Source: Cephaloticoccus sp. (GTDB lineage: Bacteria > Verrucomicrobiota > Verrucomicrobiia > Opitutales > Opitutaceae). From it: a stretch of 64,000 nt of DNA. The DNA lies in NCBI GenBank assembly GCA_021734075.1, contig JAIPJW010000002.1:12501-76500 (forward strand), given 5' to 3'. Positions 1,105-64,000 of this stretch are shown piece by piece (position 1 is the stretch's first letter; each line of letters starts with the position of its first letter). Both the position numbers and the translations under genes were made by a program. The notes beneath the pieces are model-generated. The model ran no database searches. It was not told the origin of the DNA and saw only the letters and a program-made list of their open reading frames with translations.

Positions 1105-2469
1105 ATGATACAGAAAATCCTGATCGCCAACCGCGGCGAAATCGCGCTCCGCATAGTTCGGGCATGCCGTGAATTGGGCATCAAAACTCTCGCAGTCTAC
1201 TCCGAGGCGGATGTTCAATCTCTGCATGTCCAGCTGGCCGATGAAGCCATATGCATCGGGGGTCCACGCAGTTCCGACAGCTATTTGCGGGCTGACCGTA
1301 TCATCAGTGCTGCTGAAATCGCCGACGTGGATGCCATCCACCCCGGCTACGGTTTTCTCTCGGAAAATGCCAAGTTTGCCGAACAGTGTGAGTCGTGTAA
1401 TATAAAATTTATTGGCCCTAAGTCGCAGTCCATAAAAATGATGGGGGACAAGGCGGTAGCGAAGACCACCGTGAGGAAGGCCGGAGTCCCCACGGTTCCA
1501 GGTTCCGATGGTCCGGTGGAAACGGAAAGTGAAGCGGTGAAGATTGCCCGTAAAATTGGCTATCCGGTTATCATCAAAGCGGTCGCCGGTGGGGGTGGAC
1601 GGGGAATGCGCATAGCCCACAATGATGTCACCTTCGCCAAGGAATACCACTCCGCACGGAATGAAGCGGAGAAGGCTTTTGGCAACGGGGACGTTTATAT
1701 CGAGAAATATATCGATAAACCCCGCCATATAGAATTCCAAATTCTCGCTGATAGTCATGGCAAGATTCTCCATCTGGGAGAACGGGATTGCTCGGTTCAA
1801 CGTCGGCACCAAAAGCTCATCGAGGAGTCTCCCTCGCCATTTCTTACTCCGGATTTGCGCAAGAAAATGGGCAAGGCTGCAATCCGGGCTGCAACTGCCG
1901 CAAGTTACGAAAATGCCGGCACCATTGAGTTTCTGGTCGATGCCAAAGGTAATTTTTACTTCATTGAAATGAACACCCGTATTCAAGTCGAACATCCTGT
2001 GACCGAGGAAGTTACAGGGATCGACTTGATCAAACAGCAAATCCGCGTGGCGAATGGTGAGAAACTCGAGTTTGATCAGGGTGACATCAAGTTTGAGAAG
2101 CACGCCATCGAATGCCGCATCAATGCCGAGGATCCCGCTCGCAATTTCATCCCCTCCCCTGGGACTATCGGCCTTTATTATGCGCCCGGTGGTCACGGAG
2201 TGCGGGTCGATTCCCACGCCTACAGCGGTTACACGATCCCCTCCCATTATGATTCGATGATCGGCAAATTGATTTGCTTCGGGCGGGACCGTAAGACCGC
2301 ACTTGAACGCACTTATCGTGCTCTCAGTGAATATCTTATCCGTGGGATTAAAACCACTATTCCACTCCACAAGGCCATCATGTCGGATCCCGTGTTCATC
2401 GAGGGTAAAGCCACGACAGCCTACATGGAAGAGTTCATGAATCGGACGCCGACGGATCTTTTCAGTTAA
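1105..2469 (+). CDS. accC: Acetyl-CoA carboxylase, biotin carboxylase subunit
   Basis: [15 protein letters not shown]-terminus, [11 protein letters not shown]-grasp loop, [14 protein letters not shown]. Confidence 0.97.
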
Positions 2470-2559
2470 TTATTGTCTGATTTGATCGACAGGTTTCTTT
2501 CCAAGCGGAGATTCAATCATTTGGAAGTTCATGGCGGACCAGCTGCAAACCACACTCTG

Positions 2560-3498
2560 CTAAATCATCTGGTCAGATCTTTTCAGCACCAGATCGCTCC
2601 ATTCACCCAAGACGTGTGATTCCATGGCCCAATTCGGTGCAATGGTTGAAAAGACCTCGGCAACCTTGGGGTTTTCCACTGCCAGGATACCGCTCAACAC
2701 CAGTTGTCCGCCAACTGCGACCGAAGCCACCAATTCGTGCGCATGATGCATGAGGACGTCGGCCAGAATGTTGGCCAGGACGAGTTCTGCCTGACGACCA
2801 TTCAGACCGGTGATCAAATCGCCCTGATAGAAATCCACCCGTCCCAAGAGGCCGTTTTGCTGCGCATTCTCACAACTTACGCGCACGGCTTCCTCGTCAT
2901 TGTCAAAACCGCAAACTTGGGTGAAACCCAGTTTTGAAGCTGAGAGTGCCAGAATGCCTGATCCGCACCCGGCATCCAGCACCCGGGCCTGATGTCCTTT
3001 CGTCTGCACCCATTCAACCAATCGTTCGACGCATAGACGCGTCGTTTCATGGTTTCCCGTGCCGAAAGCCATGCCGGGATCAAGCCACAGCACTTCGTGC
3101 CCCATGGGCAGTTGAAATGACCCCCGTTCCCAGATCGGGACCCAATGCAAATGTCCAAACTGCCATGCTTTGAAATGTGTTTTGTAGCTGTCCCTCCATT
3201 CCTGCTCTACCACTGTCCGGAACACGGGCTCTCCCAACCCATAATTCGCAGTCTGGGGCATTAATTTTCCCCATTGAATCCGGGCCTCATCCCCATCCGA
3301 AAACATGCCCACGATCCAGGCACGATGTTCAATCACGTCTTCCACAATGTTCCATCCGACGTTTTCCGTTTCCAGCAGGATCCCATCGATGCTTTCGACC
3401 GCGCTCAGCGGGATTTCAGCCTTTATTTCAACCAATTGCATGTGCTCAGCGTTGTGGATGTGAAATCCGGTGCAAGCCATGAACCCGACTTTCCCCAA
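2560..3498 (-). CDS. prmA: Ribosomal protein L11 methyltransferase
   Basis: DPGMAFGTGNHETTRLC and VLDAGCGSGILALSASKLG SAM-binding motifs, NILADVL. Confidence 0.92.
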   Translation of the reverse strand: MGKVGFMACTGFHIHNAEHMQLVEIKAEIPLSAVESIDGILLETENVGWNIVEDVIEHRAWIVGMFSDGDEARIQWGKLMPQTANYGLGEPVFRTVVEQEWRDSYKTHFKAWQFGHLHWVPIWERGSFQLPMGHEVLWLDPGMAFGTGNHETTRLCVERLVEWVQTKGHQARVLDAGCGSGILALSASKLGFTQVCGFDNDEEAVRVSCENAQQNGLLGRVDFYQGDLITGLNGRQAELVLANILADVLMHHAHELVASVAVGGQLVLSGILAVENPKVAEVFSTIAPNWAMESHVLGEWSDLVLKRSDQMI

Positions 3499-3501
3499 CC
3501 A

Positions 3502-4296
3502 TTATGCCAGAACTGTCGTGTATTTCGTCCGGTATTCCCGAGGTCCGTGACCCGTGGCCGCTCGCACCGTTTTGTTGAAAAAATGCAGGTCAGGGAGCCC
3601 GACCTCTGCCGCGATTGATTTTATGGCCATGGTGGTGTGCACCAACAAATGCAAGGCACGCTCCGTGCGGCGTTGTCTGATATATCCTTCCGCCGTCAGG
3701 CCAAATTCCCCTTTGAACAACCTGGTCAAATGATTGTGGGAAATTTCAGCCCGTCGGGAAATTTCCGGGATGCGCAGTGGTTGGGCCAGATGCACTTCAA
3801 TTTCCTTCACCGCCCGACTCAGGGCGGGGTGCAGTTGCCGGCGGGGGGTAAGTTCCGAAAAGGGATGGTTGACCAGCTGCCAGAGCAGTTCCCAAAGCCG
3901 CACCGAAGCCCGGCAGGGCATGGAAGGCAGCCAGCCGGCCAATTCGTCCATCGACTTGGCCATGGCCCCATAACCATCACCCAAATCCTGCAACACCGGG
4001 ATCGGGACCAAGTCACCCCTCGACGGCAAACGGAAATGGGCAAAAGCGTGCCAGGATTCACCCGTAAACCGATATATTATCCGCGCATTCGGAGGAGTGA
4101 TGCTTACCCGGCCGGGGCAAATCTCAAAATCCCGGCCATCAATGGACAGCAGACCGTGATAATTGTAGAGGTGCAGACACCATAATTCAGGCAGATGAAA
4201 CACCTCTTCCTTCCGTCTGCGGCCATGAACTGCCCGGCCGGCTTGCACCAGCTCGGGCGGATTTTTCAACGGCATCTGCCAGTTTGCCGCCTCCAT
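3502..4296 (-). CDS. AraC family transcriptional regulator
   Basis: N-terminal cupin-like sensor and C-terminal double HTH (ISHNHLTRLFKGEFGLTAEGYIRQRRTERALHLL). Confidence 0.88.
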   Translation of the reverse strand: MEAANWQMPLKNPPELVQAGRAVHGRRRKEEVFHLPELWCLHLYNYHGLLSIDGRDFEICPGRVSITPPNARIIYRFTGESWHAFAHFRLPSRGDLVPIPVLQDLGDGYGAMAKSMDELAGWLPSMPCRASVRLWELLWQLVNHPFSELTPRRQLHPALSRAVKEIEVHLAQPLRIPEISRRAEISHNHLTRLFKGEFGLTAEGYIRQRRTERALHLLVHTTMAIKSIAAEVGLPDLHFFNKTVRAATGHGPREYRTKYTTVLA

Positions 4297-4299
4297 ACC

Positions 4300-4881
4300 T
4301 CAACTTCCCGGAGCCAAGCTTAATTTGGCCAACACCGCAGGCAACAAGCTGTGTTCGGCGGCATGGATTTTGGCGGTCAACGTGGCCAAGGTGTCGTCTG
4401 CTTCCACCCGAACCGCGGTTTGGTCGATAATGGGCCCCCCATCTATCTCTGGGGTCACATAATGCACGGTGCATCCGGTGATTTTTACCCCACGACTCCA
4501 AGCTTGGCCAATGCCGTCCAAACCCGGAAAGCTGGGCAACAAGCTTGGATGCAAGTTGATGATTTTACCGGCAAAGGCTTTCAGAAACCCTGGTTTTAAC
4601 ACCCGCATGAAACCCGCCAGCACAATCAAAGCGGGGTCACAGGCTTCGATTGCTGCCACATAGCGGACTTCCCCCTCCCCCTCCAATTTGGTGCGAAATG
4701 GGGCCGGATCCAAAAATGAAGCCGGCACCCCGTATGTGGTGCCCAGCGCCAGAATCCCGGCGTCCGGCTGGTCGGAAAATATCTGCACGACCCTGCCCTG
4801 TCCCAAGCGACCGTTGTTTTGTGCGATCAATACCGCCTCGGCGTTGCTCCCTCGTCCCGACCCAAGAATGACAATTCGCAT
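4300..4881 (-). CDS. purN: Phosphoribosylglycinamide formyltransferase
   Basis: MRIVILGSGRGSNAEAVL; NLHPSLLPSFPG; GCTVHYVTPEIDGGPII. Confidence 0.9.
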   Translation of the reverse strand: MRIVILGSGRGSNAEAVLIAQNNGRLGQGRVVQIFSDQPDAGILALGTTYGVPASFLDPAPFRTKLEGEGEVRYVAAIEACDPALIVLAGFMRVLKPGFLKAFAGKIINLHPSLLPSFPGLDGIGQAWSRGVKITGCTVHYVTPEIDGGPIIDQTAVRVEADDTLATLTAKIHAAEHSLLPAVLAKLSLAPGS

Positions 4882-4894
4882 GTTGTATTGAAGT

Positions 4895-5392
4895 TCAGAG
4901 GGATCCCGCTACCTTGATCCGTTCGATGAGTTTGGTGGTGCTGAACCCCGCCAGGAAAGGCATAAACTCGATACGTGCGCCAACGCCTTCCAACGCTGCC
5001 CGTTCCGTCGGATCCAGTTTGTCCAAGGTGTAGTCTCCGGCCTTGCAATACACATCAGGACTCAATGCCCGGATCTCGGCATCCAACCTAGGGGTGCGAA
5101 AGACGACAACCCCATCGACGCATGCCAGCGCACCCAAGGCATAGGCCCGTTCGATTTCGCTCTGCACGGGGCGTGACGGACCTTTGAGAGCCCGCACGCT
5201 TTCGTCGGCATTGATCAAAACGTAAAGCGCGTCACCGAGCGCCCGCGCCTGCTTGAGATAATAAATGTGACCCGTGTGCAGCAAATCGAACACCCCGTTG
5301 GTTATGACCAACGAATTGCCTTCGCTGTGCATTTTTTTCCGGCCCGCAACGGCCGTCGCCAGACTGAGTAGCTTGGGATTTTCCAGGTTCAC
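4895..5392 (-). CDS. Adenylyltransferase/cytidylyltransferase family protein (RfaE2/HldE C-domain-like)
   Basis: TNGVFDLLHTGHIYYLKQAR nucleotidyltransferase HxGH motif. Confidence 0.85.
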   Translation of the reverse strand: MNLENPKLLSLATAVAGRKKMHSEGNSLVITNGVFDLLHTGHIYYLKQARALGDALYVLINADESVRALKGPSRPVQSEIERAYALGALACVDGVVVFRTPRLDAEIRALSPDVYCKAGDYTLDKLDPTERAALEGVGARIEFMPFLAGFSTTKLIERIKVAGSL

Positions 5393-5461
5393 GCTGCTCA
5401 GCCATCACATGCGGTTGCGGGATTGTAAATTCTCTTCGCACTGATTTGCTCGCAACACCCC

Positions 5462-6502
5462 ATGAAAACCCGGATCGCTTTCGTTGTCCTTTCTCTGGTT
5501 CTTTCCGTCCTGATCGGTCTGACTTTGCACCGCAGCGCGGATGGAAACACCAATACAGGACCCCATCGCCCTCTGATTGGTCTCTCGATGGACACCCTCG
5601 AGGTCGAGCGCTGGCAACACGATCGCGATTTGTTTGTCGCCCGGGCCAAGGAATTGGGCGCCGACGTGCTCGTCGTATCCGCCAATGGCAACGACACCCG
5701 GCAAATCCGAGACTGTGAAGCTCTCATCAGCAATGGCATCGATGCCCTCGTTATCATTCCCCACGATGGCGCGGCCATGGCCCGGGGCGTGGAACTCGCC
5801 CATGAAGCCGGCATTCCGGCACTGGCCTACGATCGGCTCATCCTCAATTGCGACCTCGATCTTTACCTCACTTTTGACAACGTCCGGGTGGGAGAACTGC
5901 AGGCCGGTTATCTCGTCGACAAGCTGCAGGGCAGGAAGGCACGCATCGTTCGACTGCTCGGTTCAAAAACTGACAACAATGCGTTTCTCTTTAAACAAGG
6001 CCAGGACAACATCCTGAATCCCGCCATCGCCCGGGGAGACATCGAAATCGTGCACGAGGACTGGTGCGACGGATGGCGACCGGAAAACGCCAAGAAAGCC
6101 GTCAATGCCGCCATCACCAAGGCAGGCCGCAACATCGATGCCATTTTATGCTCCGCCGACATCCTTGCCGGAGGCGCGATTCAAGTCCTGCTTGAAGAGG
6201 GTTTGGCCGGCAAAGTTTTGGTCACGGGACAAGACGCGGACCTTACCGCCTGCCAACGCATCGTAGAAGGCACCCAGTCGATGAGCATATACAAACCCAT
6301 CAAGAATCTGGCGAGGACGGCCGCTGAACTCGCGGTTAAGATGGCAAAGCGCGAAGTGATTGTCGCCAAACAGGAATTGACCAACGGCAAGATCAAGGTG
6401 CCCTCAATTTTCCTGCCCGTGTATGTCGTGGACAAGGAATCGATGGAAAGTCTGGTCATCGCCGATGGATTTCATTCCCGCGAGTCCGTCTATAAAAACT
6501 AA
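5462..6502 (+). CDS. xylF: D-xylose ABC transporter substrate-binding protein
   Basis: Signal peptide, periplasmic sugar-binding fold (IGLSMDTLEVERWQHDRDLFVARAKELGADVLV), upstream of ATPase and permease. Confidence 0.88.
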   Translation: MKTRIAFVVLSLVLSVLIGLTLHRSADGNTNTGPHRPLIGLSMDTLEVERWQHDRDLFVARAKELGADVLVVSANGNDTRQIRDCEALISNGIDALVIIPHDGAAMARGVELAHEAGIPALAYDRLILNCDLDLYLTFDNVRVGELQAGYLVDKLQGRKARIVRLLGSKTDNNAFLFKQGQDNILNPAIARGDIEIVHEDWCDGWRPENAKKAVNAAITKAGRNIDAILCSADILAGGAIQVLLEEGLAGKVLVTGQDADLTACQRIVEGTQSMSIYKPIKNLARTAAELAVKMAKREVIVAKQELTNGKIKVPSIFLPVYVVDKESMESLVIADGFHSRESVYKN

Positions 6503-54843: not shown

Positions 54844-57800
54844 ATGAAGTTTGCCATGAAAACGATCACCCTTGGAGCAATCCTTCGCACTGCCACCTCA
54901 TTGTTTTCTCGGCTGTTGCTGGTTGCTCTGGTTTGTTCGGCTTTCGTTGTCACCGCCATTGCTACCGAAGTTGCCGATGTCACCTACACTTGGACCGGAT
55001 TGGGCACCAGTAATTACATCGGCTCGGAGGGAAATTGGCTGGATGATCAACCACCAGACTTGTCCGAGTTGCCTTACGATGAGGATATTTTGGGTATCTA
55101 CGTATTGTTCGGCGATGTCCGCCGCACCTACATCAATTACTACGAACTTTACGCCCATCAGCTGGAGTTCCGGGGCAATACCCAGGGATATTTTCTGAAC
55201 GGTGACTACGACACGACTCACATCGGCAGCGGGGGCATCATTTATAACCCCGTTGGCAACGTCTGGTCCGTGATCAGTGACGATGTCCAACTCCATGCGT
55301 CGCAGGTCTGGAATATCCAGGCCGGCACTCTGCGCATCGAGGGCCAGATCAGCGACACGATAGATTACAATGGGGAGGACCCTGTCTATGGAAATTTCCA
55401 GATTGAAAAGACCGGCCAGGGCAATCTGGAGCTGGATACCGGCTACTACTATTACGGATCCGAATGGGGTGGAGGACTCAAACTGACGGCCGGCACCGTC
55501 ACCGCTCGTGGCGCCGCCCGTTTTGATTCCGGCTATCGCGGCGACGAATATTATTATTACTATTGGGGCGACATTTCGTCCGCCCTCGGTGTGGGCCCCT
55601 TGATCTTCAATGGCGGCACGCTGCACACGGATCAAAGCTACTACGGCGAGTATTCTAATACCGACTTTCTCCGGTTGACCAACAATATCATCAGCAACGG
55701 TCTCGTCTCCATCAAAACCGACCAGGAACTCCACCTCGATCAAAACGGCGAGGAAGTGGACGAGTTCCGACTCGACGCCGACACGTTGCTGCGGACCAGT
55801 GGTGCGCCCGTCTTCATCGAGAAGGATATCACGGACAATGACGGTGGCTACAAACTCACCGTCGAGACGGACAACGCCATTGTTCTGTATGGCAGCAGCG
55901 GTTGGACTGGCGGCACCCAGATCAACAAGGGTGTTCTCATCTTCGGCGGCGAGGACAACACCCCCGGCGTCACCGGCGGGATCACTATTGGCGCGCTCGG
56001 CTATGCCGGCATCGGCGTCGACAACAATGTGGGCGGGTTTCTGGGCGAAATCGATCTGGCCAACTCACCCGGCACCATCGGTTTTGACAGCGACCCCGAC
56101 AGTCAATCGGGACCCGACACGTTCACGGACAATGTCGATCTGACCGGGGCCAACGCCAGCACGCGTCTCGGCTCCGCCACACAAGCCATCCTCGGCGACT
56201 ATGAAACTTTTACCGGCGGCGTGATCACGCCCCAAGGCAGCGACTACCGCTTTGGCGGCGGTGGCGGCTCACTTTATGTCGCCAGCCTGCTGAGCGATTC
56301 CGGCAGCCCGCGCAACGTCGTTGCCGAGTCGCCGATGGAGGCGCCCCTAACCGTTTGGCTGCTCAATCCCAGCAATAATTTTTCCGGCTCGGTGTCCGCA
56401 AACCAATCCGCCGTCGTTTTCGGTCCCGGGGTCGTGCCTGCCAACGTCAGTGCATTCAACCTCAGCAACAGTGGTTATGTGGGCACCGCCGAATCAGAAT
56501 TCACGGCCGCCGGCTGGCTGAGTTACTTCCCGACCAACACCCCGGGCATCATTGGTTTTGATATCTTCCCCACCGCCACGGAATCATGGGAAGTCACCAA
56601 CCTCTCCATGGCGGCCTTCTCCTCCGCCTACGTGGGAACCACGTCCATCCTGCGCGACGAGGCTGGCGAGTCGACCGGACCCGGCGTGATCCTTTCCGGC
56701 ACCATCGCCCCCAACTCCGACAACATCCATCGCTTTGCCGCCTACAAGGGCGGTGGGCTGGAGGTGGCCGGCACCTTGACGGGCAACAGCCTGCTGATCG
56801 GCACTCCGGACACAATCGCCACCTTCGGCGATCCCCGGCGGGAAGAGTATTCAATCGTCTTCCTCTCCGGCGACAACACCGGTGGTCTGACCGGCGGCAC
56901 CACCCTATACAGCGGCCAGCTGTTGCTCGGCCAGGGCGCGGGTGAACCCGGGACCGATCCCAGCTCCGCCCTCGGCACCGGCCCATTGACCGTGGCCGGG
57001 GTTAACTATACCTTTGGTGACGACGATGAGCCCCCGGCACCCCAACTCGCGACCGCAGATGACAGTGACATCATCATTCCCAATGCGATCGTTCTGAACG
57101 CCGAATTGGGCGTGGGGGGAAACCATGACTTCACCTTGGCGGGCAACATCAGTGGCAGTGGCGAACTTTATGTGGGTGAGGATTCCGATGGTTATTTCCA
57201 GCTCACTCTTGCCGGTGACAACACTTTCTCCGGTGGAGTTTACTTAAGTAATCAATCCAGTCTTGTGCTCGACAGCAACACCGCCACCGGAACCGGTCCG
57301 CTCGGCTTCGGCTACAGCTATGGCAGTTACGTGTATTTTAATACTAACGCACCGGTCGTCGGTGGACTCGCCAGCAAGGACGATGGCGACTACGCCTCTT
57401 TGTATACCCAGGCTGACGATACGGTGTTGACCATCAATCAGGCGACCGACGCCAGGTTCAGCGGCGAATTCCGTGACTACAGTGAGACGCAAAACCTGAG
57501 GATCGTTAAGACGGGGCTTGGCACCTTGCGATTGGAGTCGGGCGGTTTATACTACTACAACGGTTCTCCGGAAGCCTCCCTGCCAGGCACTCCTGGGGTA
57601 AGCCTGCAAATCAACCAAGGCACATTGGTCATTGGTAATGATTTCTATGTCGAGGACAGCACCCCCACCATTTGGGTGCACGGCGGCACGCTGGCACTGG
57701 CCGGCGGCAGCCATGTGAGCAACCCTGTGGTCGTGGACAACGGGGGACGGCTCGGCGGCGGCGGAGTGTTTGCGTCGTCCGTCTCCATCGGCAACGGGGC

Positions 57801-58338
57801 CGTCCTGTCACCCGGCCTGCAAGCCAATGGCGGCGCGACCGGCGCCATGCAGTTCTACCACCTCGAACTCGATGCCGGCGGCATCTACGAATTCAACGTG
57901 CAGGACCCGGACCCGGAAAACTATATCGGGCGTGACATCATCAAGGTCTACAACCCCAACTCCGGCGACCAGACCCTCGTCATCAATGCCGACAGCGAGC
58001 ACCCCTTCATCATCAAGGTTGTCTCACTCGGCTCTGACGGACTGGCCGGCCTGCTCGAAGGCATTGATCAGAGCCATGGGCTCTACTCCTGGACCCTGAT
58101 CAATTTCGATGTCCTGAGCATCTCGGGCGACCGGGACTTCGATCCCGCTTTCTTTACCCTGGACCTCACCGGCTTTGCTTCCGACGCCCCGCTGGGCGGT
58201 GATTTCAGCCTGTTCCTGGAGAGTAACAACCTCATGCTCGGATTCACCCCCGTGCCCGAACCCTCAACTTACGTTTTAATGGCACTTGGCCTTGGATTTG
58301 TGGTCTGGACTGTGCGACGCCGACGTCACATCACATAA
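54844..58338 (+). CDS. Autotransporter-associated beta-strand-repeat protein with PEP-CTERM sorting signal
   Basis: Signal peptide; repeated LTGGTTLYSGQLLLG / FSGGVYLSNQSSLVL-type beta-strand repeats; C-terminal PVPEPSTYVLMALGLGFVVWTVRRRRHIT. Confidence 0.9.
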   Translation: MKFAMKTITLGAILRTATSLFSRLLLVALVCSAFVVTAIATEVADVTYTWTGLGTSNYIGSEGNWLDDQPPDLSELPYDEDILGIYVLFGDVRRTYINYYELYAHQLEFRGNTQGYFLNGDYDTTHIGSGGIIYNPVGNVWSVISDDVQLHASQVWNIQAGTLRIEGQISDTIDYNGEDPVYGNFQIEKTGQGNLELDTGYYYYGSEWGGGLKLTAGTVTARGAARFDSGYRGDEYYYYYWGDISSALGVGPLIFNGGTLHTDQSYYGEYSNTDFLRLTNNIISNGLVSIKTDQELHLDQNGEEVDEFRLDADTLLRTSGAPVFIEKDITDNDGGYKLTVETDNAIVLYGSSGWTGGTQINKGVLIFGGEDNTPGVTGGITIGALGYAGIGVDNNVGGFLGEIDLANSPGTIGFDSDPDSQSGPDTFTDNVDLTGANASTRLGSATQAILGDYETFTGGVITPQGSDYRFGGGGGSLYVASLLSDSGSPRNVVAESPMEAPLTVWLLNPSNNFSGSVSANQSAVVFGPGVVPANVSAFNLSNSGYVGTAESEFTAAGWLSYFPTNTPGIIGFDIFPTATESWEVTNLSMAAFSSAYVGTTSILRDEAGESTGPGVILSGTIAPNSDNIHRFAAYKGGGLEVAGTLTGNSLLIGTPDTIATFGDPRREEYSIVFLSGDNTGGLTGGTTLYSGQLLLGQGAGEPGTDPSSALGTGPLTVAGVNYTFGDDDEPPAPQLATADDSDIIIPNAIVLNAELGVGGNHDFTLAGNISGSGELYVGEDSDGYFQLTLAGDNTFSGGVYLSNQSSLVLDSNTATGTGPLGFGYSYGSYVYFNTNAPVVGGLASKDDGDYASLYTQADDTVLTINQATDARFSGEFRDYSETQNLRIVKTGLGTLRLESGGLYYYNGSPEASLPGTPGVSLQINQGTLVIGNDFYVEDSTPTIWVHGGTLALAGGSHVSNPVVVDNGGRLGGGGVFASSVSIGNGAVLSPGLQANGGATGAMQFYHLELDAGGIYEFNVQDPDPENYIGRDIIKVYNPNSGDQTLVINADSEHPFIIKVVSLGSDGLAGLLEGIDQSHGLYSWTLINFDVLSISGDRDFDPAFFTLDLTGFASDAPLGGDFSLFLESNNLMLGFTPVPEPSTYVLMALGLGFVVWTVRRRRHIT

Positions 58339-58608: not shown

Positions 58609-58638
58609 AACCCGCTGCGCTTCCGCGGCGGGTTTTTT
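58609..58638 (+). terminator. Intrinsic terminator
   Basis: AACCCGCtgCG-cttc-CGcgGCGGGTTTTTT. Confidence 0.8.
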
Positions 58639-60829
58639 ATTGGACCAATGCCGAGGCCTTGGTGATCAGACCGAGAAACTCATTGCGATACCCGCCCGCA
58701 TCATTCCCCACACCCGCCCGTGCCCATGTTTCGACCGCCGACCAACTGAGCTCATCCACAGTTTTGGAGTCCCGCAGCAGCATCCCGAAACCTGCCACAG
58801 CCGCAGTGAATTTGAAGTCCGCACTCGCCGCGGCAAACCCTGCCCCCCGATCCAGCAACGGATATTCCAACAACTGGCTCTCCGTGTCCTCGGGAGCTTT
58901 GTAGCGAATCTTCAAGATGAGCAATTCACGGCTGCCGGTATCCCGGGTGGAAACGAGCTGGTATTTCAAGTCATCCACTGAACCGCCTCGGGCCGTGAAT
59001 TCGATCCCCACGGGCACGATCTCATACAAGGCCGTCACCGTGTGTCCGGCGCCAATCTCACCGGCATCCACCTTGTCGTTGTTGAAATCCTCCTTCCTGA
59101 GCATCCGGTTTTCGTAGCCAATCAAGCGGTAGCTAGCGACTTGGGCGGGATTGAATTCAACCTGGAGTTTCACGTCTTTCGCAATGGTCACCAGCGTGCC
59201 GTTGACCTGCTCAACCAACATTTTCTCTGCCTCCCGCCGCGAATCAATGTAGCCATAATTGCCGTTCCCCTGATCTGCCAGTCGCTCGAGTTTTGCATCC
59301 TGATAGTTGCCCATGCCGAACCCGAGCACGGAGAGAAACACGCCGGACTGGGCCTTTTCCTCGATCAGCCGGGTGAGCCCGCCTTCGTCACTTAGCCCGA
59401 CATTGAAATCGCCGTCCGTGCAGAGAATCACACGGTTGAGACCGCCGGTGATGAAATTGGCCCTGGCAATATCGTAGGCCAGTTGGATGCCCATCGCCCC
59501 GTTGGTCGAACCGGCGGGGGACAACGCGTCCACGGCCTGCAGAATATCAGTCGCATGACGAGCCGGAGTCGATGGCAGTGCCAGACCAGAGGCCCCGGCG
59601 TAGGTGACAATCGCCACCCGATCCTCCGGTTGCAAGCGCTCCACCAACAGGCGCAGGGTCTGCTTCACCAGCGGCAGTTTATTCGGCGCGCGCATCGAAC
59701 CGGACACATCGATGAGGAAGACCAAATTGGCGGCCGGACGGTCCCCGTGGGAGACTTCACGCCCTTTCAAGCCGATTCGCACCAGTCGGTGTTCCGGAGC
59801 CCAAGGGGCACTGGCCACCTCCATACTTGCTGCGAACGGCACCTCGCCCGTTGGCGGGGCATAGTTATAGGGAAAGTAGTTGATCAATTCCTCAATGCGC
59901 ACCGCATCCACCGGCGGGCGTTGCCCGTTGTTCAGGAAACGGCGCACGTTGGCATAACTGGCCGTGTCCACATCCACTGAGAAGGTCGACAAGGGGTGAT
60001 CCGCGACCCGGGTGAATTCGTTGTCCGCCCGATGGCTGTAGCTTTCCGTGTTCAAGTCCGGGGCGCTTGGAGGCATCAGCTGTTGCCGTTCACTGATATT
60101 GCGTGCGGCCATCGCATGGACCGTTTGCTGCTGCGCGATTTGTGTGCTCGCCATGGCCTTTGCCGCCATTTGTCGGTGCGCGGCCGCAGCGACGGAATTC
60201 TTGCGTTGCGTCTGATCTGTGACCGCAGGTCCCGCCATGCCGAGGGTGGTGCCAGCAACTTCCATCGCCATTTTCGTCTCCGTGCTCGGGTTGGCAATCA
60301 GGTAACCGAAATCCTGGTCCTTGGCCACCATCCGTGGTGCCAGAGCCTGCAACTCGGCTTCGCGTTTCCGGTGCGTTTCCCGCAAACTGGGTGCGGGTTC
60401 CTCTGCAGCCCCCCCACTTTCGTCGTCTACTTCATTGGTCGCCACCGGCATTGCCACCGGCAGGGTCAGTTCCTGGTAGTGCTTCTGTGCTGTCACTGGC
60501 GTGCGTTCCCGCGGTTCGTGGATGACCACCAGCACCGCAAAACACGCCGCCGCCAACGTGCCGACCACGTAGTAGAATTTCGGGAAACTCAGCAGTGTTC
60601 CCTTGGATGCCCGATAGCGATCCTTCAGCGGTTCCACTTTCGGCAGCGGCTCGGCGCCCAGCACCGCTTCCAGCTGGTCCGCCGTTTCCTGAATACTGGT
60701 CACGATGGCCTGCGCCTCCGGGTCGGCCCGCAGTTGCTCGGCGAAGGCGGCGCGTTCGATTGCATCCATCTCGCCCAGGGCATAGGTGGTGAGACGGGTA
60801 TCTTCGGGGGAAATTTTTGGTGTGTTCAT
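58637..60829 (-). CDS. VWA-domain protein with N-terminal anti-sigma-like region and TM
   Basis: LTTYALGEMDAIERAAFAEQLRADPEAQAIVTSI anti-sigma-like; TM FYYVVGTLAAACFAVLVVI; MIDAS FLIDVSGSM; likely start MNTPKISPED (ORF to 60904). Confidence 0.85.
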   Translation of the reverse strand: MNTPKISPEDTRLTTYALGEMDAIERAAFAEQLRADPEAQAIVTSIQETADQLEAVLGAEPLPKVEPLKDRYRASKGTLLSFPKFYYVVGTLAAACFAVLVVIHEPRERTPVTAQKHYQELTLPVAMPVATNEVDDESGGAAEEPAPSLRETHRKREAELQALAPRMVAKDQDFGYLIANPSTETKMAMEVAGTTLGMAGPAVTDQTQRKNSVAAAAHRQMAAKAMASTQIAQQQTVHAMAARNISERQQLMPPSAPDLNTESYSHRADNEFTRVADHPLSTFSVDVDTASYANVRRFLNNGQRPPVDAVRIEELINYFPYNYAPPTGEVPFAASMEVASAPWAPEHRLVRIGLKGREVSHGDRPAANLVFLIDVSGSMRAPNKLPLVKQTLRLLVERLQPEDRVAIVTYAGASGLALPSTPARHATDILQAVDALSPAGSTNGAMGIQLAYDIARANFITGGLNRVILCTDGDFNVGLSDEGGLTRLIEEKAQSGVFLSVLGFGMGNYQDAKLERLADQGNGNYGYIDSRREAEKMLVEQVNGTLVTIAKDVKLQVEFNPAQVASYRLIGYENRMLRKEDFNNDKVDAGEIGAGHTVTALYEIVPVGIEFTARGGSVDDLKYQLVSTRDTGSRELLILKIRYKAPEDTESQLLEYPLLDRGAGFAAASADFKFTAAVAGFGMLLRDSKTVDELSWSAVETWARAGVGNDAGGYRNEFLGLITKASALVQ

Positions 60830-60836
60830 GTCTGCC

Positions 60837-61376
60837 TTAGGGCCGCAACGCGGCAAATTCCGTGCGCAAACGTGCGACGGCGGTGTGAATGAGAAAACCC
60901 ACATTGCTCACGGAGAGGGAGGTGATGCGGCTGATCTCCTTGTAGCTGAATCCATTTTGAAATTTCAGGCGGATGACTTCCTGTTGGTTGGGTGGCAGGT
61001 GTTCGATCATCTGCAAAATGGCGCTCTGGGTCTCATCACGTTCGAGTTCCCTGCCCGGCCGGGGATCTGCCGCGGTCACCCGCTCCACTTCGCCCTCCTC
61101 AAACCGTTTCATGCGCCCCTCCTTGCGCAGGACATCCAGCGCCCGGTGCCGGCATACGGTAAACAACCATTCGACCACGTGTCCTTCCAAGGTGCCATCC
61201 GGCTGGGCCATGAGTTTGACAAAAGTGTCCTGCACCACATCGCGGGCCCGGTCGGGGTCGGACAGCAATCTGGCGGCATAGCGGGTGAGCGGAGCCTGAT
61301 GTTCCGCAAAGGTGCGTTCCAGGAAGGCGGTGTTCTCATGTGTCTTTTCCCCTGGTTGCATTGTTTCGGTGGCCAT
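60837..61376 (-). CDS. ECF RNA polymerase sigma factor
   Basis: DRARDVVQDTFVKLMAQP; EHLPPNQQEVIRLKFQNGFSYKEISRITSLSVSNVGFLIHTAVARLR. Confidence 0.92.
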   Translation of the reverse strand: MATETMQPGEKTHENTAFLERTFAEHQAPLTRYAARLLSDPDRARDVVQDTFVKLMAQPDGTLEGHVVEWLFTVCRHRALDVLRKEGRMKRFEEGEVERVTAADPRPGRELERDETQSAILQMIEHLPPNQQEVIRLKFQNGFSYKEISRITSLSVSNVGFLIHTAVARLRTEFAALRP

Positions 61377-61557
61377 GGGCTTCAGGAGTGGAGACGCGGG
61401 ACAATTCCCTTTATTAGAAAATATTTCCCGCCACCATTGCGGGAAGCAAACTCAACCGAATCGAATCAATATTGCGAAAAACTCAAAATCCCGGCTTGCC
61501 TCGATTGCGACCGCACCTTTTTCTGCGTCCGACCTTTTCACACCAACCCCGCCTTCC

Positions 61558-61623
61558 ATGATGTCCCACCTTTACGCCAACACTGTTATTCTCGGCGTGC
61601 GCGTGGGCTGCTTGACCAACTGA
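61558..61623 (+). CDS. Candidate leader peptide (21 aa) of attenuator
   Basis: ATGATGTCC...AACTGA = MMSHLYANTVILGVRVGCLTN; ends 11 nt before pre-emptor hairpin. Confidence 0.4.
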   Translation: MMSHLYANTVILGVRVGCLTN

Positions 61624-61634
61624 GTCGAGCCTTC

Positions 61635-61710
61635 GCCCGCCGCACCGAGCGGGCCTTGGAAATAAAACTTCCTGTGTAACCCGCTCCTCGCCGAGCGGGT
61701 TTTTTGTTTT
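61635..61710 (+). promoter_or_regulatory. Candidate attenuator: pre-emptor, antiterminator and terminator
   Basis: 61635-61640/61649-61654 (GCCCGC/GCGGGC); 61647-61653/61680-61686 (GAGCGGG/CCCGCTC); terminator 61678-61686/61693-61701. Confidence 0.6.
61678..61710 (+). terminator. Intrinsic terminator in the ABC exporter leader
   Basis: AACCCGCTC-ctcgcc-GAGCGGGTTTTTTGTTTT; no annotated + strand gene upstream. Confidence 0.85.
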
Positions 61711-61743: not shown

Positions 61744-63588
61744 ATGTTTTCCTATTTCAATACCATTTGGTCACTTATGCGAGGCTACCGCCTGCGCTAC
61801 GGCTTGGCTTTGGTCAGTTTGATGGTGGCAACCTTGCTTAACTACGGCGTGCCCCTCATCGGCAGCGTCACGATCGATTTCGCCGTGTCCGGCAAGACTA
61901 TCGCTCACGATACCTCGCGTCCCGTGCTTTGGTTGCTCCATCTGCTCGGTGGAGCGGAGCATTTGCGCAACAACCTCTGGCTGGCTCCCGCGGCCATGGT
62001 GCTGCTCAGTGCCATCGGCGGTGTGTTCAGCTATCTCAAGGGCTGGCAGGCATCGCTGGCCAGCGATGGTATCGCCCGGCGCCTGAAAAACCAGCTCTAC
62101 AACCATCTCAACCATCTGCCGGCCCGGCACCACGACCTGTCCGACACCGGCGACCTGGTGCAGCGCTGCACCAGCGATGTGGAAACAACCCGTCAGTTTC
62201 TCGCATCCCAGGTCATGGATATCGGCAATGCCTTCATTCTCGCTGGCACGGCCCTGCCCCTAATGCTCTCGCTCAATGTGCCGATGACCCTGGTGTCATT
62301 TTCACTCATCGGGCCCATTGTCATTTACGGCTACGTTTACTTCCGCCAGGTGCGCCATGTGTTCAAGGGCGTGGAGGAAGCGGAGGGCGCCCTGACCGGC
62401 GTGGTGCAGGAAAATCTCACCGGCATCCGGGTGGTTCGCGCGTTTTCCCGGCATGAATTCGAACGGGCCAAATTCGCCGAACCCAACGCGCTCTATCGAG
62501 ATCGGGCCGTGCGTATGATCAAGCTCATGGCGTGGTATTGGTCGATCAGTGACATCGTCGCCATCAGCCAGATCGGCCTCACTTTGATAGTCGGGGCCCA
62601 TTGGATTGCCACGGGGCAACTCACCGTGGGCGTGCTCTTCGCGTTCCTGGCCTACCTCGGTATCATGATGTGGCCGGTGCGCCAGATGGGACGCATCCTG
62701 ACTGATCTGGGCAAAACCACGGTCGCCTTGAACCGCATCAAGGAAATCCTCGCCGTGGCCCCCGAGTCCGAGCCCCCGGCTGATCCCGCAGTGACCGCCC
62801 AACCCTTGAGCGGTCAGATTTCTGTCGCCGATCTGCATTTTCACCACGCTTCCAGCGACCTGCCCGCCACGGGCCGGGGCGCGCTCAACGGCATATCCTT
62901 TGCGGTCAAACCCGGGGAAACCCTGGCCATCCTCGGACCCTCGGGCTCGGGCAAAAGCACCCTCATGCACCTGCTGCTGCGGCTTTACGATTACCGCCAG
63001 GGTTCGATTCGCTTTGATGGTCACGAACTCTCCACCCTGCCGCGCAAATGGCTGCGTGGACAGATCGGTGTGGTCATGCAGGAACCTTTCCTCTTCTCCA
63101 AAAGTCTGCGGGAAAATCTGCGGCTTGGTCACAGCACCGCCCCGGAGAATGAAATCGAGAGCGCCGCCCGCGCGGCTTGCATTCACGATACCATTCTCGG
63201 TTTTGAACACGGTTACGAAACGGTCATCGGCGAACGCGGCATCACGCTTTCGGGCGGCCAGCGCCAACGCGTGGCCATCGCGCGCGCAGTGCTCAAGCAG
63301 GCTCCCCTGCTCATTCTCGATGACGCCATGAGCGCCATCGATGCCGAGACGGAAACCATGATTCTCGACGCCCTCAAGGCCCGCCGTGGTCATGCCACCA
63401 CCCTGGTCATCGCGCACCGGCTGGCGACCCTGGTCCATGCCGATCGTATCCTGGTGCTCGATCACGGCCGCATCATTCAAACCGGCACCCATGCGGAGCT
63501 GGCCGCCCAGGACGGACTCTACCGCCGCCTCTGGCAAATCCAGACCAATGTGGAGTCCGATTTTAAAACCGAACTCCAAGCCACCTGA
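61744..63588 (+). CDS. ABC transporter ATP-binding/permease (YheI/BmrC-like half-transporter)
   Basis: 6-TM exporter domain, [51 protein letters not shown]. Confidence 0.93.
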   Translation: MFSYFNTIWSLMRGYRLRYGLALVSLMVATLLNYGVPLIGSVTIDFAVSGKTIAHDTSRPVLWLLHLLGGAEHLRNNLWLAPAAMVLLSAIGGVFSYLKGWQASLASDGIARRLKNQLYNHLNHLPARHHDLSDTGDLVQRCTSDVETTRQFLASQVMDIGNAFILAGTALPLMLSLNVPMTLVSFSLIGPIVIYGYVYFRQVRHVFKGVEEAEGALTGVVQENLTGIRVVRAFSRHEFERAKFAEPNALYRDRAVRMIKLMAWYWSISDIVAISQIGLTLIVGAHWIATGQLTVGVLFAFLAYLGIMMWPVRQMGRILTDLGKTTVALNRIKEILAVAPESEPPADPAVTAQPLSGQISVADLHFHHASSDLPATGRGALNGISFAVKPGETLAILGPSGSGKSTLMHLLLRLYDYRQGSIRFDGHELSTLPRKWLRGQIGVVMQEPFLFSKSLRENLRLGHSTAPENEIESAARAACIHDTILGFEHGYETVIGERGITLSGGQRQRVAIARAVLKQAPLLILDDAMSAIDAETETMILDALKARRGHATTLVIAHRLATLVHADRILVLDHGRIIQTGTHAELAAQDGLYRRLWQIQTNVESDFKTELQAT

Positions 63589-63600
63589 TCCTGCACCGCC

Positions 63601-64000
63601 ATGACTGCTCAATTTCATCAAGAAGACGATTTCAAGGCCAAGCTTGATGCCGGCCTGTGGTGGAAAATTTTTCGCCGCGCCCTGAACTTCAAGCGCTACC
63701 TCGTGCCTCTGTTCTTTGCTTCACTGCTGCTCGCCGTGGGTGATTCCAGCTTCGCCTTCATCACGCGCTGGGTGATCGATGGCGTGGTGCGCGATGGCCT
63801 GTCGGCTAACTTCACGCTCTACGCGGGCGTCTACCTTGGTGTCACCCTCGTGTTCAGTTCATGCATCTGGGGCTTTATCTTTCTCGCCGGCAACATCTCC
63901 TACCGGCTGTCCCACGATATTCGACGCGACAGCTTCGATCGTCTCCAGGAGCTCGAATTCTCCTTTTTCGACACCCGACCTGTCGGTTGGCTGATCACCC
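63601..64000 (+). CDS. ABC transporter ATP-binding/permease (YheH/BmrD-like), truncated by window end
   Basis: ATG at 63601, MTAQFHQEDDFKAKLDAGLWWKIFRRALNFKRYLVPLFFASLLLAVGDSSFAFITRWVIDG...SHDIRRDSFDRLQELEFSFFDTRPVGWLIT. Confidence 0.85.
   Translation, partial: MTAQFHQEDDFKAKLDAGLWWKIFRRALNFKRYLVPLFFASLLLAVGDSSFAFITRWVIDGVVRDGLSANFTLYAGVYLGVTLVFSSCIWGFIFLAGNISYRLSHDIRRDSFDRLQELEFSFFDTRPVGWLIT

Follow-up and report, generated by a model that had tools for sequence, protein, structure and literature searches.

Most known leader-peptide attenuators of resistance genes belong to Firmicutes and Actinobacteria. Translation-coupled leaders with more than four alternately pairing arms are familiar from the enteric his attenuators, which sense a run of His codons and terminate transcription when untranslated. 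Several other systems are also close to the locus presented here. In Bacillus subtilis, a short ORF (bmrB), a terminator, an antiterminator and a predicted anti-antiterminator precede the genes of the heterodimeric multidrug ABC exporter BmrCD, and the system is induced by ribosome-targeting antibiotics; the terminator of this system is part of the bmrB coding region, and both expression and inducibility decrease when bmrB is no longer translated (PMC4191407). The vmlR leader of the same species uses a uORF-controlled anti-antiterminator, an antiterminator and a terminator to regulate an antibiotic-resistance gene; there, the anti-antiterminator contains the uORF, and losing the start codon or the Shine-Dalgarno sequence of the uORF nearly eliminates expression (PMC9226507). 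In the uORF attenuator of whiB7/wblC from actinomycetes, full translation of the uORF favours an intrinsic terminator, and translation disturbed by many antibiotics or by amino-acid starvation favours an antiterminator (PMC11550727; for wblC, also PMC12421871). Finally, removing the uORF start codon in the duf1127-1 attenuator of Sinorhizobium meliloti derepresses the downstream gene, termination being thought to be Rho-dependent via a C-rich element (PMC12218461).

Here, we describe a leader located upstream of an ABC exporter pair in Cephaloticoccus sp. and in relatives from the Opitutaceae family. We consider it probable that this leader is a five-arm, translation-sensing transcription attenuator controlling the exporter pair. 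Its parts, their conservation and their mutually exclusive pairings can be read from the sequences themselves.

The exporter locus and the elements of its leader

The window, i.e., the whole 64,000-nt stretch of DNA analysed, ends within the second of two half-transporter genes (Table 1). This gene starts 12 nt after the first one, and its complete copy is found at positions 1902-3833 of the sequence L116. Asymmetric catalytic motifs are typical of heterodimeric exporters, e.g., BmrCD and TM287/288. In the first half-transporter, we found the motif ILDDAMSAID, where Asp replaces the catalytic Glu, and the second carries the signature LSTGQ together with MDEATSSID; solved relatives of the pair include YheI and a TM287/288-type pair. 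Thus, judging by its motifs, this pair of adjoining half-transporters with asymmetric catalytic sites bears the hallmarks of a heterodimeric ABC exporter.

Upstream of the leader, a divergent gene for an ECF-type sigma factor (61376-60837, minus strand) reads away from it. Because this gene points away, the terminated RNA most likely starts inside the 367-nt gap between the sigma factor and exporter genes. The sigma factor gene is followed by a gene for a YfbK-like von Willebrand factor A protein, the two occupying 58637-61376 on the minus strand, divergently from the exporter. Farther on, at 54844-58338, the window codes for a 1164-aa repeat-rich surface-type protein with a PEP-CTERM-like tail (VPEPSTYVLMALGLGFVVWTVRRRR). 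On the other side, 3' of the exporter pair and in the same direction, L116 carries a gene for a 539-aa peptide-binding-protein-like product (3967-5586; OppA-like by eye).

Table 1. Leader elements and exporter genes in the window
Feature	Position	Strand	Remarks
-35-like TTGCCT of the probable leader promoter	61496..61501	+	TTG-type hexamer upstream of 48/51 leader ORFs
-10-like TTTTCT	61519..61524	+	17 nt after the -35; T-rich hexamer at equal spacing in most relatives
Leader ORF	61558..61623	+	MMSHLYANTVILGVRVGCLTN, 21 codons + TGA 61621-61623; ORF at the same place in 48/48 leaders
Arm 0, within the ORF	61597..61608	+	GTGCG 61597-61601 and GTGGGC 61603-61608; partners are arm 1 and the CGCAC that follows
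P0 hairpin GCTTGAC/GTCGAGC	61610..61630	+	Arms 61610-61616/61624-61630; stop codon in the loop
Arm 1	61635..61645	+	Partners: arm 0 or arm 2 for GCCCGC 61635-61640, arm 0 for CGCAC
Arm 2	61647..61654	+	GAGCGGGC; GCGGGC 61649-61654 pairs with arm 1 (pre-emptor); GAGCGGG 61647-61653 pairs with arm 3 (antiterminator)
Antiterminator inner stem	61658..61672	+	GGAA 61658-61661/TTCC 61669-61672
Arm 3	61680..61686	+	CCCGCTC, common to antiterminator and terminator
Intrinsic terminator	61678..61710	+	AACCCGCTC-ctcgcc-GAGCGGGTT, then T-rich tract; arm 4 is GAGCGGG 61693-61699; terminator scan
First half-transporter of the regulated exporter	61744..63588	+	Pfam ABC_membrane + ABC_tran; 614 aa
Second half-transporter	63601..64000	+	Pfam; 643 aa, continues beyond the window end

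A base-by-base re-reading of every element named in the original prediction, which had proposed a leader ORF followed by competing hairpins, showed all of its coordinates to be correct; arm 0 within the ORF, the stop-codon hairpin P0 and the -35/-10-like pair had been overlooked. Arm 3 of the terminator begins 57 nt after the leader stop codon, and the end of the T-run is about 34 nt away from the exporter ATG. The 155-nt leader region folds at -56.8 kcal/mol, lower than 200/200 dinucleotide shuffles (z -3.31). A leader transcription start is predicted at about 61531. A generic promoter scan did not pick up the 61496-61524 pair because its -10 is poor. TTGCC-type hexamers precede the ORF in most leaders, and most relatives display TTTTCT, TTCGCT, TTTATT or TTTAGT as a -10-like hexamer at the 17-nt spacing. 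No Shine-Dalgarno sequence precedes the ORF in the window, and an SD-like match was found in only about 9 of the 51 leaders.

Conservation of the leader within Opitutaceae

The exporter was searched for in 95 relatives and then in 252 genomes of Opitutaceae, and the upstream DNA was inspected at 61 loci. The layout of an ORF followed by a terminator 36-95 nt past the stop lies upstream of the orthologous exporter in 51 of them. All arms are present in 48 of these 51 leaders, which represent 16 genera, all from a single family; their exporters share from 84% down to about 52% identity with that of the window. Overall, the leader has been retained over very long evolutionary time in Opitutaceae, and conservation of the short ORF and of the stems, which the original prediction had proposed as its own check, was indeed found. 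At the other 10 of the 61 exporter loci, the layout is lacking or has lost a part. The orthologues in which the attenuator is missing, partly lost or modified are L010, L013, L014, L016, L022, L037, L059 and L060, along with the altered L011 and L052; they are natural controls for its function.

We also built a covariance model, R1, from 31 leaders. In the 252 genomes, its strong copies are found only before this exporter, with one strong copy in the window's own genome (E 3.6e-27). On the named loci, R1 finds the leader at the exporter again, the genomes being largely the same, hence this is no independent proof. A wider regulon was considered as well and rejected: the weaker R1 matches that were fetched proved to be plain CCCGCTC/GAGCGGG-type terminators, ending unrelated genes and lacking arm 2. 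Among distant exporter relatives from Planctomycetota, Chloroflexota and Desulfosporosinus, no leader with this layout was found.

Indeed, ordinary Opitutaceae genes are repeatedly followed by the terminator AACCCGCTC-loop-GAGCGGGTTTTTT (e.g., L075 near 700; in the window, 61678-61701). CCCGCTC-loop-GAGCGGG followed by a T-run is a stock terminator of Opitutaceae and alone means little. Since the family uses it so commonly, the terminator by itself is weak evidence for an attenuator, the evidence being the extra copies of the motif. In the upstream region of L019, seven T follow the first hairpin, and two tandem terminators may be present there.

Keeping this in mind, one could suppose that the locus encodes just a short constitutive RNA with a terminator, or that twin terminators insulate the exporter, no switch being involved. 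The stock nature of the terminator and the seven T of L019 would agree with this, as would a weak Rfam likeness to an sRNA, the best match of the leader being anti-hemB RF02837 (27.7 bits against a gathering score of 49.5). However, no T-run follows the first hairpin in the window and in nearly all relatives, the divergent upstream gene leaves nothing to insulate, and retention of the ORF, arm 0 and P0 would go unexplained. We therefore regard such an arrangement as highly improbable.

Another peculiarity concerns 13 distant leaders (L017, L018, L061-L070 and L074, from genera g13, g20 and g48), where TTTCCCTCCCATCCC, a stretch lying between arms 2 and 3, hardly varies. This stretch (e.g., in the upstream region of L062) is more conserved than any arm requires, and no convincing pairing partner for it was found within the leader. 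It is possibly a protein, Rho or pausing site.

Competing arms and the proposed sensing of translation

By base complementarity, the leader is composed of five mutually competing arms, where pairings 0:1 and 2:3 correspond to read-through and pairings 1:2 and 3:4 to termination. Conserved GCG GGC (Ala-Gly) codons near the ORF end are complementary to GCCCGC of arm 1, enclosing the P0 hairpin. In the window's minimum-energy fold through arm 3, 0:1 is an 11-bp pairing, and the in-ORF arm pairs with arm 1 by at least 5 bp in 47 of 48 leaders; for L008, where the automatic assignment chose a wrong helix, the 0:1 and 1:2 pairings were read by eye. The extended 0:1 duplex is more stable than in synonymous recodings of the ORF, both in group A (34 leaders; mean -24.9 vs. 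-19.4 kcal/mol) and in group B (16 leaders; -17.9 vs. -13.9 kcal/mol). For the window alone, the extended duplex also beats synonymous recodings (p = 0.02), and the 6-bp core is no better than in shuffled ORFs (p = 0.23).

Comparison of 31 relatives, whose aligned leaders are related so that the pair counts are not independent, revealed changes on both sides in 5/5 modelled pairs of the P0 helix and compensating changes in several pairs of the 0:1 helices. The best single case is L008, where arm 0 and arm 1 are altered jointly (GCGGACC/GGTCCGC), 1:2 being kept via G-U. In genus g20, arm 0 is kept in other codons (ERF codons, ACGAGC/GCTCGT), and in L051 it is kept in another reading frame (KRA). 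Because arm 0 persists in other registers and codons, it is the RNA arm that is kept, and not the Ala-Gly dipeptide.

Helices 1:2, 2:3 and 3:4 are nearly invariant in their cores in the same 31 relatives: the cores of 1:2 and 2:3 are 99.5% and 99.1% paired, 3:4 is paired in 100%, and CCCGCTC of arm 3 does not vary at all in the alignment. The pre-emptor hairpin sequestering the antiterminator arm, which had been proposed initially, is supported by 1:2 pairing. The same holds for the mutually exclusive antiterminator and terminator with the GGAA/TTCC inner stem, given 2:3 and 3:4 pairing in relatives; in this inner stem, 5/6 pairs changed on both sides, only 51% of the cells being paired. Since the CCCGC/GCGGG core pairs hardly vary, they show no covariation, and the 2:3 and 3:4 cores are neutral as evidence in this respect. 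Taken as sets, the read-through pairings (0:1, P0, 2:3) reach a covariation of 0.158 vs. 0.119 in shuffled and at most 0.099 in slid controls, and the termination pairings (P0, 1:2, 3:4) 0.142 vs. 0.102 and at most 0.082; both sets also exceed these controls in cells paired. In general terms, three features expected from a ribosome-mediated attenuator are found here: a short ORF kept between promoter and terminator, an intrinsic terminator, and exclusive antiterminator and pre-emptor pairings.

What, then, might be sensed? Codon positions 1, 2 and 3 of the ORF differ alike among the leaders (169, 193 and 155), and the synonymous share of changed codons is 15.6% (0.156) vs. 25.7% (0.257) expected. 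Judging from these substitutions, the leader peptide is under no purifying selection. A conserved arrest peptide of the ermC type was rejected, as RNA pairing accounts for the apparent VAxAGxPAT motif and amino-acid changes are in excess. An attenuator of the trp/his kind, making the exporter respond to a shortage of one amino acid, would share the general architecture of alternating arms; yet codons 2-10 hold no residue common to all leaders and no run of like codons, only few doublets, and the gene under control codes for an exporter rather than a biosynthetic enzyme. This candidate was likewise rejected, and we find it scarcely credible. It seems to be translation as an act that is conserved, and not the peptide sequence. 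With neither a conserved peptide nor a run of like codons, a general translation sensor is most likely.

The same lack of purifying selection on the peptide might lead one to think of a riboswitch-like attenuator sensing a ligand or a protein, with the short ORF being incidental or only maintaining the fold; RNA pairing does explain much of the conserved codon pattern. Against this, all 48 leaders have an ATG ORF of 15-26 codons with a stop 15-50 nt before arm 2, compared with 2.7 expected by shuffling and with 1-2/48 when the search window was slid by 30-60 nt; this open frame of near-constant length is maintained even where the arms shift register. Moreover, a permissive Rfam search yielded sub-threshold sRNA look-alikes only, with no family at the gathering score, and group A leaders have no conserved unpaired core such as aptamers need. 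Such a riboswitch-like device is, in our opinion, very unlikely.

Returning to the translation-sensing attenuator, we infer the following scenario for its transcription, its translation, the direction of the switch, the inducer and the exporter substrate. Transcription would begin near 61531, and the 21-codon leader ORF would be translated behind the polymerase. A ribosome that reaches the last half of the ORF would keep both arm 0 and P0 from pairing. Arms 1 and 2 would then join, leaving arm 3 for arm 4, and transcription would terminate ahead of the exporter (OFF). When no ribosome loads, or one is stuck within the first ~9 codons, pairing 0:1 would form instead, enclosing P0. This would free arm 2 for arm 3, with GGAA/TTCC inside; the terminator would be blocked, and the exporter would be transcribed (ON). 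The signal would most likely be poor translation in general, caused, e.g., by ribosome-targeting compounds that the exporter may remove.

Folding models were examined with RNA extending only to 12 nt past arm 2, i.e., before arm 3 exists, and with the ribosome position varied; these are equilibrium models of sub-lengths and not kinetics, the state without a ribosome being the least certain step. In the window, the probability of 1:2 pairing, P(1:2), lies at 0.93-1.00 when the ribosome is 1-11 codons short of the stop and at 0.00 when it is 13 codons back or more. Group means are 0.82-0.99 (A) and 0.78-0.84 (B) in the former case and 0.45-0.66 (A) and 0.38-0.58 (B) in the latter; L070 and L074 from group B show almost no 1:2 pairing in the model. 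Without a ribosome, P(1:2) is 0.28 in the window, unlike the group means of 0.64 (A) and 0.71 (B), which are mixed at equilibrium. The window's lowest-energy fold through arm 3 consists of 0:1, P0 and 2:3, and that of the full leader of P0, 1:2 and 3:4. Equilibrium folding through arm 3 was discarded as a read-out of the switch, being uninformative: 2:3 and 1:2 compete there whatever their order of formation.

The trigger proposed in the original prediction was different. There, a four-arm attenuator would work as in bmrB, a ribosome paused at the leader stop covering arm 1 and freeing arm 2 for the antiterminator, with the exporter off without translation. Every part needed for this is present, and the 14-nt gap between stop and arm 1 in the window is near the ribosome edge, so that 1-2 more covered bases shift P(1:2) from 0.96 to 0.11. 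However, a normal footprint leaves arm 1 uncovered: with the stop codon in the A site, P(1:2) in the window stays at 0.93-0.96 up to a 3' edge at P-site +16, dropping to 0.11 only at +17, and the group B mean is unchanged up to +18. In more distant relatives, the gap is 15-24 nt (median 20), so that arm 1 would lie almost out of reach of a ribosome at the stop. Such a trigger, which also leaves out the conserved arm 0 and stop-codon hairpin, is not favoured, and we find the four-arm scheme improbable.

The five-arm model suggests an inverted default, for and against which we are evenly divided: an untranslated leader would read through, terminating only when a ribosome completes the ORF, so that the exporter would be repressed by the cell's own translation and induced whenever translation capacity is lost, regardless of the peptide. 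Given the mixed group means obtained at equilibrium when no ribosome is present, default-ON depends on 0:1 forming first.

The Opitutaceae leader compared with described attenuators

A search of open-licence papers returned none combining Opitutaceae with an attenuator, and the titles and abstracts of such papers gave nothing relevant on leader peptides in Verrucomicrobia. If the inverted default is true, no earlier example of such a device from Verrucomicrobiota appears in the papers searched, and this leader would be the first. A conserved attenuator in Opitutaceae would mean that a phylum whose regulation is little studied also evolved this design, or retained it. Retention of the leader suggests that these bacteria encounter ribosome inhibitors often enough to keep it, and gives a functional hint for the exporter pair, which may remove compounds harming ribosomes. 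With its five arms and unconserved peptide, the leader would make a clear and testable example of a device that senses translation itself.

By its modelled function, the leader is a ribosome-mediated attenuator, and in sequence it shows none of the tested marks of an amino-acid attenuator or an arrest peptide. Like the his attenuators, it has more than four alternately pairing arms, but their parity is opposite. The analogy with bmrB-bmrCD, drawn originally, holds for the kind of device and its target, with a short ORF and competing hairpins ahead of a heterodimer-type ABC exporter, and fails for the state predicted without translation, which would be ON here. Unlike in bmrB, the terminator is situated 57 nt past the stop and not in the leader gene, and the ORF contributes a fifth arm. 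The leader shares with vmlR an anti-antiterminator, an antiterminator and a terminator under uORF control, whereas loss of the start codon or SD is predicted to switch the gene on. In this last respect it would resemble duf1127-1, as start-codon loss would derepress the exporter, but it has an intrinsic terminator with competing arms. The closest in logic is whiB7/wblC, which controls a transcription factor in another phylum.
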